From the NCBI GenBank assembly GCA_020630065.1, contig JAHDCC010000006.1:1-61694 (forward strand): 61,694 nt of DNA, read 5' to 3'. Below, one piece after another: positions 5,876 through 55,727 of the stretch. The notes beneath the pieces were generated by a model, which was not told the origin of the DNA, ran no database searches, and worked only from the letters and a program-made list of their open reading frames with translations. A program made the translations under genes and the position numbers. This stretch comes from Acidimicrobiales bacterium. Its GTDB lineage: Bacteria > Actinomycetota > Acidimicrobiia > Acidimicrobiales > SZUA-35. The first letter of the stretch is position 1, and each line of letters begins with the position of its first letter.

Positions 5876-6178
5876 ATGACCAGCAACACATACAACTATG
5901 TCGATGACCTACTAGAAGGCATGGACATACCGGCCGACCAAGAAGCACGGATTAACGCCCGGGTCGCAGAAATGGTCGAAGCAGACCACGCCCTCAAAAA
6001 CCTTCGCAAACAGTTAGGCATTTCCCAAAACGTTGTCGCCGACGCTATGGGCGTCTCAAAATCGTCGGTAAACCAGCTCGAAGCCCGGAACCTACGCAAC
6101 GCCAAACTCGACACGCTCGTCCGCTACTTTGAGGGCTGCGGTTACAACCTCGAACTAACCCTCACACCCATCGACTAA
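5876..6178 (+). CDS. HigA-like Xre-family antitoxin
   Basis: A 100-residue protein whose second half is a helix-turn-helix: 'NLRKQLGISQNVVADAMGVSKSSVNQLEARNL'. It is expected to neutralise the upstream toxin and repress the operon. ATG 5876 has AGAGGAG upstream, though with a long spacer of about 11 bases; an alternative ATG at 5852 adds eight residues and lies about ten bases after a TATAGAT -10-like element (5836-5842), so a leaderless start from an internal promoter is possible. Extra antitoxin expression from such a promoter is common in these modules (inference). Confidence 0.75.
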   Translation: MTSNTYNYVDDLLEGMDIPADQEARINARVAEMVEADHALKNLRKQLGISQNVVADAMGVSKSSVNQLEARNLRNAKLDTLVRYFEGCGYNLELTLTPID

Positions 6179-6189
6179 GACGGCCAGAC

Positions 6190-6966
6190 TTATTGTTCGA
6201 TGTGAAGGCCGCATTCTCGGGTGATACCGAAGAATCGTGTGTCTTGTTCGCTCATGCCCTCTTCGAGCTTGCGGGTGGTGTGAGTATCACCGACACTGAC
6301 ATAACCCTCTTCCCACAACGGATGATAAGGAAGGTCGTACTCTTTCAAGTAGTTATGAATGTCGCGGTTGGTCCAGTCAACGATGGGATGAAATTTCACT
6401 CGACCGTGCTGGAATTCAAGAATTCGACGTTCGGCCCGACTGTCGGCCTGAACTCGACGCAAGCCGCTGTACCAGGTACCGGCCCCGACCTGACTCATGG
6501 CCCGCTGCATCGGTTCGACCTTATTCAGCGCGTTGTATTTCTTGAGACCCTCTTCGCCTTGTTCCCACAGCTGACCGAAGCGGGCTTCTTGCCAGGCCGG
6601 ACTCATCTCGGCACGGAACACTTGCAAGTTGAGTTTGAGGCGTTCGGTTAATTCGTCGGCGAACCGGTACGTTTCTGGGAAAAGGTATCCGGTGTCAAAA
6701 AACAGTACCGGCACGTCGGGGACCTGCTTGGTCATCATGTGCAGCATCACCGCCGACTGGATACCAAAACTGGACGACACTACATGGTCTCGAGGCAGGT
6801 TTTCTAGCGCCCAGGCAATGCGGGTTTCGGCGTCGACTTCGTCGAGCCATTTGTTGGCGGCGGAGAAAACCTTCGGACCGTTCGACACTCGTTCGATGTC
6901 AGGCATACGACCGGTGTCGTTAATGTCGCCAGACCGGGCATCAAGTTGCTTTGCTTCAGGGCTCAT
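6190..6966 (-). CDS. cysH: Phosphoadenylyl-sulfate (PAPS) reductase
   Basis: Cytosolic assimilatory sulfate reduction enzyme converting PAPS to sulfite with thioredoxin. Motifs seen: the PP-loop '[14 protein letters not shown]', '[14 protein letters not shown]', '[16 protein letters not shown]', and the C-terminal catalytic 'ECGLH'. The paired CC/CxxC cysteines that bind the 4Fe-4S cluster of APS-type reductases are absent, so the PAPS type is preferred. The 258-residue length from ATG 6966 is normal; upstream in-frame codons to 7020 run through a region lacking family similarity and are left out. No other sulfur genes are adjacent. The gene is divergent from the GNAT gene at 7309, with a strong palindrome between them. 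Confidence 0.9.
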
Positions 6967-7089
6967 AAGTAAAAAAATCCTGCTTCCGGTACGAAGATGC
7001 TGGCCGCTACACCGCGGCAACGAACGCTACGGCCCGTGTACCGTTGGAGTCGAAACCGCCAACAGTAAAAGGGTACCTTCCACAAATCT

Positions 7090-7114
7090 AAACCCGACTT
7101 GTCTAGTCGGGTTT
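7090..7114. promoter_or_regulatory. Perfect 10-bp inverted repeat between divergent cysH and GNAT genes
   Basis: AAACCCGACT at 7090-7099 pairs with AGTCGGGTTT at 7105-7114 across a 5-base loop. It lies upstream of genes on both strands, so it cannot be a simple 3' terminator for either; an attenuator-like hairpin in a leader or a dyad operator are both possible. The right arm is also the beginning of a dispersed repeat (7106-7153). Confidence 0.45.
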
Positions 7115-7153
7115 TAAGGTCATGAACACAACCTGCGTCGATTTATGAGTTTT
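7106..7153 (+). repeat. Dispersed intergenic repeat, copy 1, containing an 8-codon ORF
   Basis: About 48 bases starting GTCGGGTTT and containing ATGAACACAACC recur, with roughly 85% identity and two compensating indels, at 8026-8073. In this copy the ATG at 7122 opens an 8-codon frame MNTTCVDL ending at TGA 7146-7148. It lies 160 bp upstream of the GNAT gene on the same strand. Confidence 0.6.
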
Positions 7154-7308
7154 AAACTACTCACAAAACCTACATAAAGCTTAAATAAGCTGCTAAATCT
7201 AATCGGGATGTGACAAATTTGATCACAGTCGACGAATCGCAGAAGCCGCATCGGCCAGACAACCCAAATTCGGGCACCCGTTCCGCTGTTCTCGACTAGC
7301 ATTCGCAC

Positions 7309-7974
7309 ATGAAGCAGCAGTGGCCCGTATTCAATCTTCGAATAACGACTCCCCGATTGGTGCTCCGTGTAGCAAACGAGGAAGAAACCTGGGAGCTAAC
7401 CGAACTCATCGACGAATCGGTCGTAGCCGACAGCACCGACTTTCCGTTCGCGTCCGCCTGGCCGCTACTGCCAAGCCCCGACCGGGAACGCAGCGCATAC
7501 CAGTTCTACACGTCGACTCGCGCCCAATGGCAACCTCAAAACTGGATACTTCTCCTGACGGCGTTTGTCGACGGCAAACCAATCGGACTTCAATCGATCG
7601 CTGCCACCAACTTCGGGAAACTCCGGTCAGTGTCGACCGGTTCTTGGCTCGGAGCGGAATGGCAAAACAACGGCTACGGAACCGAAATGCGAGCCGGCAC
7701 CCTCGAACTAGCTTTTGGCGGCCTTGACGCTTTAGAAGCCCATTCGGCTTACCGGGACGGCAACGAACGCTCTCGCGGGGTTTCACGCAAACTTGGTTAC
7801 GTCCCGAACGGACATGAACGGGTCATGTTCGGCAGCGAAGCGGCAACCAATTTTCGTGTGATCGTCACCCCCGACCGCTGGCTCGAACACCAAACCCCCG
7901 GAATCACGGTCGAAGGCCTCGACGACTGTGTCGACTTCTTCGGCGGCAACGGTGAAACCTGGCAGCGTGTGTAG
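7309..7974 (+). CDS. GNAT-family N-acetyltransferase (RimJ/RimL-like)
   Basis: A 221-residue acetyltransferase; substrate unknown. It begins with 'ITTPRLVLRVANEEE', typical of RimJ/RimL-type GNAT proteins, has the acetyl-CoA-binding loop region 'GSWLGAEWQNNGYGTEMRAGTLELAF' and ends the fold with 'NERSRGVSRKLGYVPNG'. The C-terminal 40 residues are extra. It is a single gene with dispersed repeats on both sides (7106-7153 and 7986-8073). Codon use resembles the surrounding metabolic genes. Confidence 0.85.
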   Translation: MKQQWPVFNLRITTPRLVLRVANEEETWELTELIDESVVADSTDFPFASAWPLLPSPDRERSAYQFYTSTRAQWQPQNWILLLTAFVDGKPIGLQSIAATNFGKLRSVSTGSWLGAEWQNNGYGTEMRAGTLELAFGGLDALEAHSAYRDGNERSRGVSRKLGYVPNGHERVMFGSEAATNFRVIVTPDRWLEHQTPGITVEGLDDCVDFFGGNGETWQRV

Positions 7975-50968: not shown

Positions 50969-51096
50969 ACGGTTTCGCTATTTGTACCCATTATTACCCA
51001 ATTTTGACTACTTCGTACCGAAGAGCCACCTGTGATTACCCCGAAAATGTATATTCATAACCACTAGTTCAAGGATCAGCGACTAGATTGGAGACT

Positions 51097-51969
51097 ATGG
51101 TGACAATCGATCATTCCGTGGTGGTTGGTATCGGTAAGGGTGGAAGCTGTAAAACCACCCTTGCGACCCAACTAGCAGCCATCTGGTCCAGCGAAGGTAA
51201 AAGGGTTCTTCTAGCTGATTTGGACACGCAGGCTTCGGCGACAAAAGTTTGTGGACTTGAACCCAACGATCATGGCGATGGCCGCCATTTGATGGATTCG
51301 GTGATGTATGGCGACAAGCTAACTACTGTCAAGGCACGAGATCGACTACACGTCGTGGTCGCGGGCAAACACACAAAGACCCTTTCGCATCATTTGGTAA
51401 CTGCCGAAGGTGGACCTGAAGCTTTTTCGCAGAGTTTCAACCAGTTACTGGAAGCAAACCAGTTCGATCGCATCGTTTTCGACCTTCCACCATCTGGTTC
51501 GTCCCGCCTAGCAGATATGGCCATGCAGACCGGCAAGTACTTGTTAGTGCCGACCAGCGCTGGAGTAGACAATATTGAAGGTTTAAGGGTTCTAGCTGAA
51601 GAGTTGGAGCTTCTCGAGTCCAACATTTTGTTGCTAGGAGTTGTGCTTATGCGTATAGGTGCCGGTGCAAGCCGGAAACGAGCAGAAGCCCAAAAAGAAG
51701 TTTCCGATATTCTCGACGGTGTGGCTGACCCCTTCAATACGGTGATTCGTGAGGCAAGTACCGCCTATGACGATAGTCGTAAAGCTAAATTGTTCTTACA
51801 CGAGTACGCCGAATGGGCCAGCACCGTCTCAATCACCAATCAAATCAAGGGCAGAATTCAAATTCCCACAAATTTGACTGATCTGGCCCACGAGTTTTAC
51901 GAACTTGCCGACGAGGTGGACGATCGAATTGCCTTAGCCGAACGACTGTTGGAGACATCGACATCATGA
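51097..51969 (+). CDS. Second ParA-family ATPase with unusual P-loop
   Basis: A 290-residue ParA/MinD-family protein distinct from the chromosomal parA at 54909. The deviant Walker A is 'KGGSCKTT' where ParA normally has KGG-x-G-K-(T/S): Cys replaces the third Gly, while both lysines are kept. Walker A' is 'LLADLDTQAS' and Walker B 'RIVFDLPPSG'. ATG 51097 (GGAG three bases before) or GTG 51100 (spacer six) are possible starts. Its last four bases overlap a DNA-binding partner (ATGA). Two ACCCA-containing motifs lie upstream (50984-51000) and a motif series lies downstream, so it probably drives a second partition or positioning system near the origin (inference). Confidence 0.85.
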   Translation: MVTIDHSVVVGIGKGGSCKTTLATQLAAIWSSEGKRVLLADLDTQASATKVCGLEPNDHGDGRHLMDSVMYGDKLTTVKARDRLHVVVAGKHTKTLSHHLVTAEGGPEAFSQSFNQLLEANQFDRIVFDLPPSGSSRLADMAMQTGKYLLVPTSAGVDNIEGLRVLAEELELLESNILLLGVVLMRIGAGASRKRAEAQKEVSDILDGVADPFNTVIREASTAYDDSRKAKLFLHEYAEWASTVSITNQIKGRIQIPTNLTDLAHEFYELADEVDDRIALAERLLETSTS

Positions 51970-52520
51970 GCGACAAAACACTAGGTAAAGCACGGGGCCT
52001 CAATTCGATAGCCGACCCCTCCGCATTCCGGGGTACTACAGGCCGTCGACGCAAAGAACCCGCCCAGGAAGAGGAAACTGCGCCGGCCTCAACCCCTGCT
52101 CCGGTCAAGCGGAGTGAACAAAAGACCGCAGCCAATCAACCGGTCGAAGAGCGAGCAGCTGCGGTGGCTTCTCCAGCCACTAACGACTCTGTCAGCTCCA
52201 CTCGACCAGATAAGCGACGAAAAAGGCGAGAGTTATCGGTTCCCCATGACATCGCGGCGGCGCTTGAGAATACCGCTATTAACCCTGCCGATATTGTGAT
52301 GAGTGCATATCGCCGCCACGGTGACGCTATTTATGCGGGCGCAGGTGGTAGACCGGTTAGTCGCGGACGTTCACGGTTACGCCTGTCGTTAACCGATGGC
52401 GACTTTGACAAGGTGATTCGTCTAGGCGAAGTTCGGGGCTGGAATCGTTCAGAGACGGTTGCCGTTCTGGTGGCCTTCGAGTTGATGCCTGAAACCATGG
52501 AACTCGGCCCCCAAACCTAA
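51966..52520 (+). CDS. Partner of the second ParA; probable ribbon-helix-helix DNA-binding protein
   Basis: A 184-residue basic protein. The N-terminal ~25 residues ('KTLGKARGLNSI') are basic, as in ParB-type partners that stimulate ParA; residues 30-75 are low-complexity Pro/Ala/Glu; the C-terminal ~45 residues 'SRLRLSLTDGDFDKVIRLGEVRGWNRSETVAVLVAFELM' region has the strand-helix-helix pattern of RHH proteins. A preceding segment ('RRELSVPHDIAAALENT') looks similar and may be a second RHH unit. Overlaps parA2 by four bases. Followed by the motif-rich non-coding region, its likely DNA target. Family name unknown. Confidence 0.65.
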   Translation: MSDKTLGKARGLNSIADPSAFRGTTGRRRKEPAQEEETAPASTPAPVKRSEQKTAANQPVEERAAAVASPATNDSVSSTRPDKRRKRRELSVPHDIAAALENTAINPADIVMSAYRRHGDAIYAGAGGRPVSRGRSRLRLSLTDGDFDKVIRLGEVRGWNRSETVAVLVAFELMPETMELGPQT

Positions 52521-52526
52521 CCTTTT

Positions 52527-53448
52527 TATACCCATCTTCACGCTGTTGATACCGACTTACACTCCCATTTGCCCAATATGCATCTTTAGGTACCCTGGCT
52601 ATAACCTCTTATACCCGTAGCCCGATTCCTGCATCTTCAGGTGGCCGTTTTTGGTGTTTCGTTAGTCCCACCCAGTGGGCGACAACCTAACCCTTCTACC
52701 GCTATCCGTTTACCTGTTTTATACGTGATTAGCCCCAAGAGCCACCTAACTAGCCACGTTTACACGTGAATATACCCAAATCTTTCTAGTTGATACCCGT
52801 TCATACCCGGATCCGCCACATAGGACCCTCCCAGTGTTCTCCTACGCGAGTGAAGTCCACGCGCCTCTTCGGGCATCATCTTTTTGCCTGAAAGTCTGCA
52901 ATCACCCACCCGGCAACACCAGAAGGCACGACGCTTGAGACGACCGCTGGAGACGGGGCGGCCCTGTTGGCGGTCGACGTCTTGCGTCCTTCATACCCCC
53001 ATCAGAACCATTTCATACCCAAATATTATTTATATACACCCAATATGAACCTATAGCTACCTGACTACTACTTGTTCTTGCCCACAATTCAACCAAACAT
53101 GCACAAGATATACCTTTTCCATCTGAACTTATACCCGAAACCGTTGGCTTGACTTAGAGAACACGAGCCAGCGGGAACCCGACAGCAAAGCCGAGTAGGA
53201 AAAGAGCGGCAAAGCTAACCGCCCTCCGCTGCACCACGTCTGGCAATGGCTCAACCATCCGCCACCTATAAATGGTTCGAGTAACCGACGGGGCAACAAT
53301 CGACCACCGGACCCAATCCAGGGTCATCCCCAGGACGGCTTATCCAGTCATCACCAGGTCACCCTATTTATACCCAATCATCACCATTTAATACGCAATC
53401 ACCCATCAAACCGTCCCACATAATCACCATCTATGCAGGCAATACCCC
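52527..53448 (+). repeat. Series of (T/C)ATACCC(A/G) motifs, candidate centromere-like array
   Basis: Near-identical octamers, all in plus orientation: 52527 TATACCCA, 52610 TATACCCG, 52771 TATACCCA, 52792 GATACCCG, 52802 CATACCCG, 52992 CATACCCC, 53014 CATACCCA, 53130 TATACCCG, 53369 TATACCCA and 53441 AATACCCC. Weaker variants occur (for example 52717, 53032, 53109, 53390). Reverse-orientation copies occur beyond parB at 54427 and 54807. An octamer is expected about once per 65 kb, so this is strong enrichment. The spacing is irregular. Binding by the RHH partner is hypothesis. Confidence 0.7.
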
Positions 53449-53464
53449 CGTTTCACGTGAAACA
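53449..53464. promoter_or_regulatory. parS site
   Basis: CGTTTCACGTGAAACA matches the 16-bp chromosomal parS consensus TGTTTCACGTGAAACA at 15 of 16 positions. It lies 88 bp beyond the parB stop. It is the loading site for the ParB CTPase clamp. Confidence 0.93.
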
Positions 53465-53517
53465 AGGCCTTTGTTACACACCCTCTACCCACAAGAGATC
53501 ATCAGTTAATCACAGCA

Positions 53518-53526
53518 TTATCCACA
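53518..53526 (+). promoter_or_regulatory. Perfect DnaA box
   Basis: TTATCCACA, an exact consensus DnaA-binding site, 54 bp from parS and 25 bp from the parB stop codon. One of the few exact boxes noticed in the window. Confidence 0.7.
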
Positions 53527-53551
53527 AACTGTGGGGAGTCGTAAACGGGTT

Positions 53552-54343
53552 CTAGATAAGTTCCTGAAAGATTCGATCAAGGTCTTCGAGGTCAGCGAAC
53601 TCGATTACAAGACGACCAGGACCTTGCTGGGGCATATTGGCTGAAACCCTGGTCGACAGTCTGTCACCCAATAGATTTTCGACCTCCAACAGACCTGGAT
53701 CAGTGGATTGTTGGGGTTTAACGGTGCTCTTTTTGCCACGGGGGGCGTCCAAATCGGCGATATAACGCTTTACTACCCGCTCCAACGCCCGAACACTAAG
53801 GGCCTCTACAATCGCCCTTTCAGCAAGCAATTGACGGCTGTGAGGGTCTGGTAGGCTGAGCAACGCCCGAGCATGCCCGGCAGAAAGCTCGCCATCGACC
53901 AGAAGCCGCTGGATTGAGGTGGGTAGTTGAAATAGACGCAACGCATTGGCTACTGCTGGTCGACTTTTTCCCACCCGTACAGCGACTTCATCTGATGTCA
54001 AGCCAAAGTCGTCCACAAGACGCTGATAGGCAGCCGCTTCTTCCATCGGATTCAGATCAGATCGATGCAGATTTTCGACCACGGCCTGTTCTAGCGATTC
54101 TCGATCGTCGATTTCGCGTATAACTACTGGCACTTCGTCTAACCCAGCTAACTGAGCGGCCCTCCAGCGTCGTTCCCCCGCAATCAGCTCAAATGAAGTC
54201 GAGTTAAGCGGGCGGACCAAGATTGGCTGGAGCACGCCTAATTCGGCGATCGAGTCTGACAATCCCAGTAACGCTTCTTGATCAAAGCGTTTACGGGGCT
54301 GAAGTCGGTTGGGAATTATTGAGTCAGCTTGAACGTATTTCAA
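53552..54343 (-). CDS. parB: Chromosome partitioning protein ParB
   Basis: A 263-residue ParB. The N-terminal CTP-binding domain has 'PNRLQPRKRF', 'LGVLQPILVRP' and the 'GERRWRAAQLAG' motif; 'ENLHRSDLNPMEEAAAYQRL' and the HTH 'LTSDEVAVRVGKSRPAVANALRLFQLP' follow; the C-terminal dimerisation region ends the protein. It lacks the usual Arg/Gly-rich ParA-activating N-terminal extension seen in most ParB proteins, because the frame is closed just upstream of the TTG at 54343. It is separated from parA by 565 bp rather than overlapping it. Confidence 0.95.
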   Translation of the reverse strand: MKYVQADSIIPNRLQPRKRFDQEALLGLSDSIAELGVLQPILVRPLNSTSFELIAGERRWRAAQLAGLDEVPVVIREIDDRESLEQAVVENLHRSDLNPMEEAAAYQRLVDDFGLTSDEVAVRVGKSRPAVANALRLFQLPTSIQRLLVDGELSAGHARALLSLPDPHSRQLLAERAIVEALSVRALERVVKRYIADLDAPRGKKSTVKPQQSTDPGLLEVENLLGDRLSTRVSANMPQQGPGRLVIEFADLEDLDRIFQELI

Positions 54344-54908
54344 GCGTTCAGATTACCCGACGACCACAAGTCCACGCATTTTGGGGGTACGAACAGGTTA
54401 TAGATGAGTATATATAGAATCTATATTGGGTATGAATGGTTATATAAATGACTTATTTAGGTATATTCACGTACATATAGGGCTCACGGGACACGCAGCC
54501 CAGCAGCTAGCACATCGGCTTCGGCCCAGAACCCCAACAACACAGCAAAGGCCGAAGAGTAAACGTTGCCTCAATCACTGAGCGGAGCTTTTAGGTCGGG
54601 CCAAGAATAGAAATTCACTCGCCAAGATCCAAGCATGAGATATAGCAATAACCCTTCGCCAAGGACCACTTTGATTCGGTACGAGTCTGCACCAGCCGGC
54701 ACATTGTTCAGCCCGACTGACTTTCATTAGTCAAACCAGTTAGAACGTCCGACATCATTCAGGTGTGGCAGTTAAGGCCACAGACCAAGCCCAGCTTGGT
54801 CACAATTGGGTATAAACAGTTACAAAAAGGAAGTACAGGGGTTTGTTAGGGTCATAATCCCTGGCAGATTTGGGTAAAGGTAGGTATGAGGCGGGAACTA
54901 TCGGGTAT
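54344..54908. other. Non-coding interval between parB and parA
   Basis: No gene seen on either strand. It contains the dyad ATATAGA-A-TCTATAT near 54410-54424, reverse-orientation copies of the array octamer (TGGGTATG 54427-54434, TGGGTATA 54807-54814), weaker TGGGTAAA and AGGTATGA variants near 54871-54889, and a long-loop CTTCGGCC/GGCCGAAG pair. It must hold the parB promoter (TATATACT-like -10 on the minus strand near 54408). Confidence 0.6.
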
Positions 54909-55727
54909 CTAGTCGCCCGGTTTACCTGCAACCTCAACCGCTAAATCTCGATAGGCCAACGCTCCCCGAGAAGCAGCGTCAAAGACCGTAATTGGCTGAC
55001 CGAAACTCGGGGCCTCTGATAAGCGCACCGTACGAGGTATAACGGTGTCGCAGACAAGTTCGCCAAAGTGAGCTCGAACCTCATCTGAAACCTGACTCGC
55101 CAGATTCGTTCGAGCATCGAACATAACAAGAACAATGTGAGACAGATGAAGCTCCGAGTTCAAGTTACGTTGTACAAGATCGACATTTCGTAAAAGTTGG
55201 CCTAACCCTTCCAGCGCATAATATTCACACTGGATAGGAACGAGAACTTCTTGTGCGGCAGCAAGAGCGTTAACCGTCAGAAGTCCTAACGACGGTGGAC
55301 AATCGATAAACACAATGTCGTAGTCGTCTCGAACTGTGCCGATCGCATTCTTCAGCCGCATCTCGCGGCTGAACGCTGGCACCAGCTCTATTTCCGCGCC
55401 AGCTAAGTCAAGATTTGCTGGAGCGATGAATAGGTTCTTGACCGCCGCCGCTTCAATAGCCTCTTCGAGTGGAACATCTTGAAGCAAAACATCGTATAAC
55501 GAGGTTTTCAGAGTCCGGGGGTTAAGACCAAGCCCTGTGCTAGCGTTACCTTGCGGATCGAGGTCCACAATTAGAACCCGGTGACCAAGCTCGGCCGCCG
55601 CAGCTCCTAGATTTACAGCAGTCGTGGTTTTACCAACGCCACCCTTCTGATTAGCGACAGCGAGGATCCGACAATCTGATTCTTCGCTCTTCGCTTTACT
55701 GGGGGCATCCTCTTTCGATTTAGCCAA
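54909..55727 (-). CDS. parA: Chromosome partitioning ATPase ParA (Soj)
   Basis: A 272-residue ParA with a canonical deviant Walker A 'NQKGGVGKTTTAVNLG', 'LIVDLDPQGNAS', 'IVFIDCPPSLGLLTVNAL' and 'QCEYYALEGL'. ATP-dependent nucleoid binding moves ParB-parS complexes. The TTG start at 55727 has TAGGAG six bases upstream and follows a short basic/acidic N-terminal tail. It lies downstream of rsmG in the usual order. Confidence 0.96.
   Translation of the reverse strand: MAKSKEDAPSKAKSEESDCRILAVANQKGGVGKTTTAVNLGAAAAELGHRVLIVDLDPQGNASTGLGLNPRTLKTSLYDVLLQDVPLEEAIEAAAVKNLFIAPANLDLAGAEIELVPAFSREMRLKNAIGTVRDDYDIVFIDCPPSLGLLTVNALAAAQEVLVPIQCEYYALEGLGQLLRNVDLVQRNLNSELHLSHIVLVMFDARTNLASQVSDEVRAHFGELVCDTVIPRTVRLSEAPSFGQPITVFDAASRGALAYRDLAVEVAGKPGD

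Follow-up and report, generated by a model that had tools for sequence, protein, structure and literature searches.

Beside the parS site of the chromosome of an uncultured Acidimicrobiales bacterium, near the origin, lies a polar, helically phased array of ATACCC-type sites that accompanies an operon for a second ParA ATPase and a predicted ribbon-helix-helix (RHH) protein. We consider it probable, on comparative sequence evidence, that the operon is a domesticated plasmid-type ParA/RHH partition module and that the array is the target of its RHH protein (the product of the gene at 51966), serving as operator and centromere beside a relocated parS. The arrangement suggests that two DNA-sorting machines have merged at one chromosome origin. 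The ParABS system with a helix-turn-helix (HTH)-type ParB is the usual origin-segregation machine of bacterial chromosomes. RHH partition proteins are known from plasmids (PMC7022226, in the part available) and also from archaea, as SegAB (PMC12284271, likewise in part). No description of a locus of this kind was found in a limited search of the open-licence PMC literature. A ParA/RHH module kept vertically at a bacterial origin, its sites lying next to and around parS, would amount to a natural experiment in how a partition system comes to be taken over or doubled. It opens to experiment whether a single centromere region can serve two ParA systems, which of the two bears the peptide that stimulates ParA, and whether the polarity of sites close to parS is of consequence.

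The window, that is, the whole stretch of DNA analysed, comprises bases 1-61694 of contig C16 in a 3.70-Mb genome (81 contigs, 95% complete). Its gene order is trxB (named from Pfam domains and place in the order), trxA, parA2, the partner gene, the array, parS, parB (-), parA1 (-), gidB, jag, yidC (-) and dnaA (59793). The parA2 gene (51100..51969, + strand; an alternative TTG start is possible at 51088) encodes a Walker-type ParA ATPase with a KGGSCKTT P-loop (Pfam AAA_31, 3.7e-20), and upstream of it, as the preliminary description had indicated, are related sites at 50984 and 50994, two cores 10 bp apart that form a putative operator (50984..51000, +; position weight matrix (PWM) scores 14.6 and 13.8). 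The start of the partner gene (51966..52520, +) overlaps the end of parA2 by 4 bp (ATGA). There follow the array (52527..53447, +), whose sites share a single orientation directed at parS; parS itself (53449..53464), with 15 of 16 matches to TGTTTCACGTGAAACA; parB (53552..54343, -; Pfam ParB_N, HTH_ParB and ParB_C); extra sites in the parB-parA1 gap, opposite in orientation and hence also directed at parS (54384..54815, -; sites at 54390, 54433, 54464 and 54813, PWM 12.3 to 16.4); and parA1, a canonical chromosomal ParA gene (54909..55727, -; AAA_31, 1.2e-64). With parA1, an HTH-type parB and a 16-bp parS carrying one mismatch, the canonical chromosomal ParABS is complete. The interval between module and parB had been called gene-free, which is true of the window, where a coding reading was rejected because no M/V-started ORF exceeds 72 aa, but not of all relatives, as the corresponding gap of locus L060 carries genes. 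In that locus, from genome G166, genes are inserted between parS and parB (5980-7600), one of them flanked by array sites and one resembling a nitroreductase by eye.

The window of 61,694 bases contains 13 copies of the strict octamer (T/C)ATACCC(A/G), seven of them on the + strand at 52527-53376; nearby, - strand copies are found only at 54427-54434 and 54807-54814. The core ATACCC is present ten times on the + strand of 52521-53551 and never on the - strand, whereas 2000 dinucleotide-preserving shuffles of this interval gave means of 0.87 and 0.18, respectively, with a + maximum of 5. Both the cluster and the inverted copies beyond parB, at 54427 and 54807, had been reported from the letters alone, and the counts and coordinates bear them out. 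Across the genome the octamer is less common (122 + 139 = 261 in 3.70 Mb) than its reversed control (166 + 185 = 351), and same-strand ATACCC-N3-33-ATACCC pairs number seven, three of them within the array kilobase, against eight for the reversed control. Since neither count rises above its control, the cluster is local: the octamer is spread through the genome yet clustered here, which does not refute the original reading. A leave-one-out PWM detects seven sites toward parS in the window and none away from it (shuffles, 0.44 and 0.04). The octamer makes up the strong half of an extended unit that reads approximately aCCnnTT(C/T)ATACCCAnA and often recurs in 10-11 bp steps, with ACC half-steps one helical turn apart, and the units are asymmetric and clustered, not palindromic or scattered. 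Recurrence at lags 10+11 is weak in the window alone (16 vs 10.0, reached by 7/100 shuffles), where the strongest lag is 21.

The AAA_31 match of ParA2 starts at residue 13 of the 293-residue reading, and the protein has no N-terminal DNA-binding domain; it matches a PHROG ParA-like partition protein (4.9e-28) and, weakly and below the cut-off, the VirC1 Pfam family (E 0.0019). The partner gave nothing convincing in Pfam, NCBIfam or PHROGs, and among PDB sequences only a weak match to a nickel regulator (E 0.7). An AlphaFold2 model, based on 16 relatives, confidently predicts a strand-helix-helix unit twice, at 86-123 and at 135-173 (pLDDT exceeds 90 for most residues from 86 to 173); the first 80 residues are of low model confidence and without secondary structure. 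The nearest folds are F relaxosome chains (Z 8.9), then DndE, single-chain Arc and VirC2, with the caution that a Z under 8 may reflect merely a common arrangement; Foldseek likewise ranks the F relaxosome chains first, at a best E of 0.002, all its matches lying above 0.001. By size and number, the matched chains are taken to be TraY; omega and ParG are not among the fold matches listed. The partner is thus predicted to be a single-chain double RHH protein resembling F TraY, so the RHH assignment made earlier stands as to fold, whereas an ordinary dimeric RHH protein does not agree with two predicted units per chain. Its N-terminus, MSxxTLGKARGLNSIADP, holds the longest invariant run of the alignment, ARGLNSIA (16/16 aligned), within the motif ARGLNSIA(D/N)P. 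In samples of 345 class and 396 phylum genomes, to which the relatives with the module did not belong, the partner profile matched one genome besides its own, G360. G360 belongs to another family of the class, and its distant ParA/double-RHH pair adjoins a large ORF resembling, by eye, a conjugative relaxase (L103, G360:C51, 855-5331).

ParA2 orthologues were found at 73-79% identity in 16 other genomes of the family, that is, in 17 of 39 with its own and in 4 of 11 genera; their mean column identity is 86%, and the operon is kept beside parB in all four genera. An 18th genome, G229, has distant ParA matches only, and among 198 genomes sampled from the order a close ParA2 occurs in one other, G166, of the same family, the next match having an E of 5e-23. 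The relatives are draft genomes, the named ones being MAGs of Acidimicrobiales, Acidimicrobiaceae or Acidimicrobiia and one 'uncultured actinobacterium'. Loci were taken around parB or parA2 from the 17 genomes with the module and from 20 of the 22 family members without it (G214 and G221, in which no parB was found, were left out), and parB, where present, set their orientation. Among the 16 other module genomes, the DNA next to parB was accessible in 15; G219, whose contig ends inside parA2, was left out of gap counts, as were two further parB contigs of G213, and the L070 gap was limited to 1.5 kb. Contig-end overlaps (169 bp in G222, 76 bp in G226) were removed from density, matrix, operator and lag counts and kept in the pooled 7-mer count, and a possible further overlap of G223 contig ends falls outside the counted 1.5 kb.

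Where the module is missing, 84-634 bp separate trxA from parB in the 18 cases showing both; parS (<=2 mismatches) was seen in 14/20 of these genomes, in each case upstream of parA1 and in none within the trxA-parB interval. In genomes carrying the module, parA2 and its partner lie between trxA and the parB side wherever trxA shares the piece (pieces of G217, G218 and G222 show none), in some cases separated from trxA by other DNA, as much as ~9 kb in G224; G222, G223, G224 and G226 have module and parB on different contigs. Here parS is located between module and parB, with <=2 mismatches in 13/16 genomes (own included) and three in 3/16. Upstream of parA1 in the one group and in the module-parB gap in the other, parS has evidently changed sides of parB. 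A tree of trx, par and gidB genes unites the 20 genomes lacking the module in a single clade (support 0.997), the 17 carrying it making up the complementary group; such a split is compatible with one gain and, less readily, with one loss. A single acquisition of the module by the common ancestor of the four genera is probable, and the cross-genome correlations described below therefore stem from what is probably a single event. Because four genera share the module beside parB, with parS in the gap, the preliminary description's view of a plasmid-type array integrated here does not extend to a recent integration: judged by comparative gene order, the module next to parB is not one.

The gaps between module and parB are unalignable among genomes except for two short local matches, and the motif is nevertheless common to them, indicating that it is kept while the surrounding DNA turns over. 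With the window excluded, ATACCCA is the top pooled 7-mer of the gaps, with 34 copies toward parS against 1.55 expected (one copy being counted twice through a contig overlap), and it still ranks first after the four next-best genomes are also removed (16 vs 0.76). The core ATACCC occurs 66 times in 22.9 kb of module gaps (overlaps removed), compared with six times in the 27.9 kb between trxA and gidB, outside parB and parA1, of the 20 genomes without the module; whole loci of the latter hold 26 copies in 230 kb and the remainder of the module loci 58 in 226.5 kb. By hand count, MCCNNNNYATACCCA is found 68 times in the 17 module genomes, 41 of them within 3 kb of parA2 or parB (one G226 site double), and 45 times in 22 genomes without the module, none on the contigs where parB was found. 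A leave-one-genome-out PWM, in which the tested genome is excluded from training, recovers, over 16 genomes, 110 sites that face parS and 12 that face away from it (shuffles, 4.0 and 0.5), while the pooled matrix yields two sites in 230 kb of loci without the module. The array is absent from the trxA-gidB loci of all 20 family relatives lacking the parA2/RHH operon. Its presence in relatives that carry the pair holds for most: G210 has the module and no array by PWM or lag test, nor does the lag test reveal another repeated motif to suit its diverged partner, and arrays are sparse in G212 (two sites) and G199 (one toward, two away).

The orientation flip noticed earlier is real, though its pivot is not parB as supposed; relatives with sites on both sides place it at parS (53449-53464). 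Left of parS, 86 PWM sites point right and eight left, and right of it 24 point left and four right (Fisher 9e-15); plain ATACCC words divide 47/8 on the left side and 11/0 on the right (Fisher 7e-8). The evidence to the right of parS comes from four genomes (G166, G217, G223 and G224), and 12/16 have no site there before parB. In G211, where the module is reversed, the array still sits beside parS, with 15 sites toward and none away on its left. Orientation is mixed in two other reversed-module genomes, G198 and G199 (8/2 and 1/2), and also in G226, G227, G220 and the right side of G223. On this distribution of sites, polarity is set by parS, not by parB. Sites 15-80 bp apart are spaced with a periodicity of 10.5-10.75 bp (77 pairs, R 0.65-0.67). 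For plain ACCC words R is 0.39, the highest shuffle value being 0.24, and ACC words of the opposite strand, which are fewer, have a similar period. A matrix-free pooled 4-mer recurrence peaks at lags 10, 11 and 21 (z 13.8, 12.3 and 12.5), and 12/20 gap pieces exceed all 100 shuffles at lag 10+11. A local tandem expansion is visible in L071 (G223:C9, reverse-complement ~15-210), where array-site pairs recur every 46 bp, five times.

The matrix trained on these gaps also detects sense-orientation sites, mostly tandem, 99-157 bp before the first matched parA2 codon in 11/12 genomes whose module has the window orientation; these upstream sites were not used in training, and the twelfth genome, G227, scores 8.4, below the threshold of 9.68. 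In the five reversed-module genomes the array itself sits upstream of parA2. Repeated sites thus appear both before the operon and in the nearby candidate centromere.

Relatives of ParA2 occur in 317 plasmid records, the 15 best-ranked of which are all actinobacterial and about 30% identical. Each of the four plasmids that were opened has a partner frame behind parA: in pAL1 and a Rhodococcus antarcticus plasmid it is an annotated second gene with 4-bp overlaps, in pAS9A-2 an RHH-annotated gene, and in pDK3 an unannotated open frame. Short-period repeats of 11 or 12 bp precede parA in 3/4. The pAL1 record shows five consecutive 11-bp direct repeats by eye (L099 3598-3663; lag 11: 24 vs 3.4), pDK3 has 12-bp repeats around ATGGCCTT (L106 2068-2135; 32 vs 7.6) and the R. 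antarcticus plasmid has 12-bp repeats (9 vs 1.2), whereas in pAS9A-2, although the gene pair is present, no clear repeats of short period precede parA. In the lag test, for which nine lags were tried, the values of pAL1, pDK3 and the R. antarcticus plasmid were each reached by 0/300 shuffles; a local repeat test was reached by 0/200 shuffles for pAL1, 1/200 for R. antarcticus and 17/200 for pDK3. Repeats in three of four plasmids indicate that short-period direct repeats tend to accompany such a gene pair despite their different sequence. A tblastn search of plasmids with the partner as query gave no match at E <=1, and the partner profile did not match the pAL1 partner and matched that of R. 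antarcticus weakly (29% probability over the second RHH unit). The 11-bp direct repeats of pAL1, an Arthrobacter plasmid, are a candidate centromere in their own right, and on pDK3 a further ParA gene lies on the opposite strand, 1.7 kb downstream.

ParF/ParG of TP228 is a plasmid ParA/RHH partition system. Like it and like delta/omega of pSM19035, the present module combines a Walker-type ParA, a small RHH partner and short repeats, which in those systems are the centromere; it differs in being chromosomal, near the origin and beside a complete ParABS, and in a partner predicted to have two RHH units per chain, unlike omega or ParG. A ParA without N-terminal DNA-binding domain, an RHH partner directly downstream and repeated sites are all features of type I ParA/RHH (often termed type Ib) systems that the module shares, the partner's fold by prediction and the sites by sequence. 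VirC1/VirC2 of Agrobacterium, a ParA-type ATPase and a double-RHH repeat-binding protein, also resemble the pair, with a weak fold match to VirC2 (2rh3, Z 4.4); they are plasmid-borne and act in T-DNA transfer. The actinobacterial plasmid pairs, including those of pAL1 and Rhodococcus, share an approximately 30% identical ParA with a partner gene behind it, but are plasmid-borne, with other repeat sequences and a partner without tblastn-detectable similarity. In the pSM19035 system, full ATPase activation needs at least four contiguous heptads (PMC9499535, in the part available); the units here are of 10-11 bp, mostly with one polarity toward parS. Archaeal SegAB, as far as the accessible text of PMC12284271 describes it, likewise comprises a chromosomal ParA-type ATPase and an RHH partner with sites upstream of its own operon, but SegB sites are 13-bp palindromes scattered chromosome-wide, whereas ours are asymmetric units clustered at parS. 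The predicted partner model shares its single-chain double RHH fold with the relaxosome accessory proteins TraY and VirC2. According to the available portion of PMC12117103, F TraY is a monomer in which a single chain makes up the complete RHH dimer fold, and three TraY molecules form a train on neighbouring sites over +61 to +90 of oriT, two direct and one inverted. Dividing this published span gives ~10 bp per molecule, which suits the 10-11-bp unit of the array. F TraY, as described in that text, differs in that it works in conjugation, alongside TraI and IHF, and in the inverted placement of its third copy; in the present genome no TrwC-family relaxase was found.

We favour the following scheme. 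The 51966 protein, as a TraY-like single-chain double RHH protein, would bind each unit in one orientation, and adjacent molecules would align head to tail along one face of the helix. On the few units before parA2, binding would shut the operon down; on the long arrays beside parS, the protein would build a partition complex, its flexible N-terminus (LGKARGLNSIADP) stimulating ParA2. The origin region would then be moved by a plasmid-descended ParA/RHH system that adds to, or partly replaces, ParA1-ParB-parS and, with parS now in the array region, both partition complexes may assemble on the same one to few kilobases. The earlier reading as a plasmid-type centromere or operator array is consistent with the linkage of array and gene pair, the parA2-upstream sites, the absence of the array from the 20 relatives without the pair and the repeats in three of four plasmids; what is revised is the partner, predicted to be double within a single chain, the pivot, which is parS, and the age, since the integration is not recent.

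If the RHH protein were only a repressor or local chromatin protein, the array would regulate parA2, and perhaps parB/parA1, with no role in segregation. The sites before parA2 and in the parB-parA1 gap of the window agree with such a function, but an operator alone seems unlikely to us, given that the array stays at parS with its polarity in G211 despite the reversed module, that G223 has array-like sites 6 kb from its module, at a contig end, as well as on the parS-bearing contig, that the phased sites are more numerous than an operator requires, and that the partner is co-encoded with a ParA. The same dependence on parS could instead mark a directional element for ParB or SMC, with the oriented sites acting as roadblocks or entry guides for ParB spreading or condensin loading and ParA2 being secondary. 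That parS sets the polarity on both sides where both carry sites, and has itself relocated to the array region, speaks for this idea; it leaves unexplained the sites upstream of parA2 and the repeats before plasmid parA genes, and most genomes have nothing to the right of parS before parB, so that we regard it as improbable.

The TraY-like, VirC2 and DndE folds of the partner, the sub-threshold VirC1 match of ParA2 and the distant G360 pair beside its relaxase-like ORF would also accord with a remnant of a conjugative element, in which the partner was a TraY/VirC2-like accessory, the array transfer-origin repeats and ParA2 a VirC1-like ATPase. Against such a remnant, the 95%-complete genome has no match to the TrwC relaxase (PF08751), eight of ten neighbouring proteins scanned matched Pfam families, none of them of conjugation, and the operon has been kept beside parB in four genera with a well-conserved ParA2, which makes this origin for the present-day locus very improbable. 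A chance product of composition is the least credible explanation: a strand-skewed, gene-free stretch can yield ACCC-rich words, and the GC skew left of parS in the window is indeed about -0.3, but shuffles preserving dinucleotides and skew give 0.87 copies where ten are observed, and the same 7-mer in relatives, together with the helical phase, contradicts it further.

Within the favoured reading of a domesticated ParA/RHH module, the N-terminus of ParB raises an additional point. In chromosomal ParB, the contact with ParA is made by the 20-30 residues at the N-terminus, which carry an LG-R/K-GL motif; plasmid ParBs are described as lacking it (PMC13245405, in the part available). This canonical motif is present in 14/20 ParBs of genomes without the module, the other six reading GGGIGSLIP (one) or GIHSLIP (five), and in 0/16 with it. 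In stop-to-stop frames, whose N-terminal letters may in part not be translated, the looser (L/I)x(S/A)LIP is found in 19/20 without and 0/16 with the module, and an LxxLL-type stretch in 0/20 and 14/16, respectively. The ParB of the window has no N-terminal extension, its TTG start lying almost at ParB_N and its frame opening three codons earlier (53552-54352), while most module relatives retain a longer tail. By eye, LGKARGLNSIADP of the partner resembles LGKGLNSLIP in the ParB of G139. One could tentatively imagine, although we think it doubtful, a chromosomal segrosome with two ATPases, the peptide that activates ParA having passed from ParB to the RHH protein, so that trains converging on parS pull while ParB retains just spreading and SMC loading. 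A ParB without LG-K/R-GL and a partner with an invariant look-alike, ARGLNSIA, would suit such a hand-over. If it took place, how far or in which direction the ParB complex extends would be set by the sites pointing to parS.

A perfect DnaA box is located at 53518-53526 of the window, 54 bp from parS. Such boxes occur in 2/20 gap pieces, the window gap among them, and three one-mismatch boxes cluster beyond dnaA, at C16:62727-62755. As DnaA boxes are rare in the gaps and their cluster lies beyond dnaA instead, a reading of the gap as replication origin was rejected, and the strand flip is not explained by an oriC at parS.
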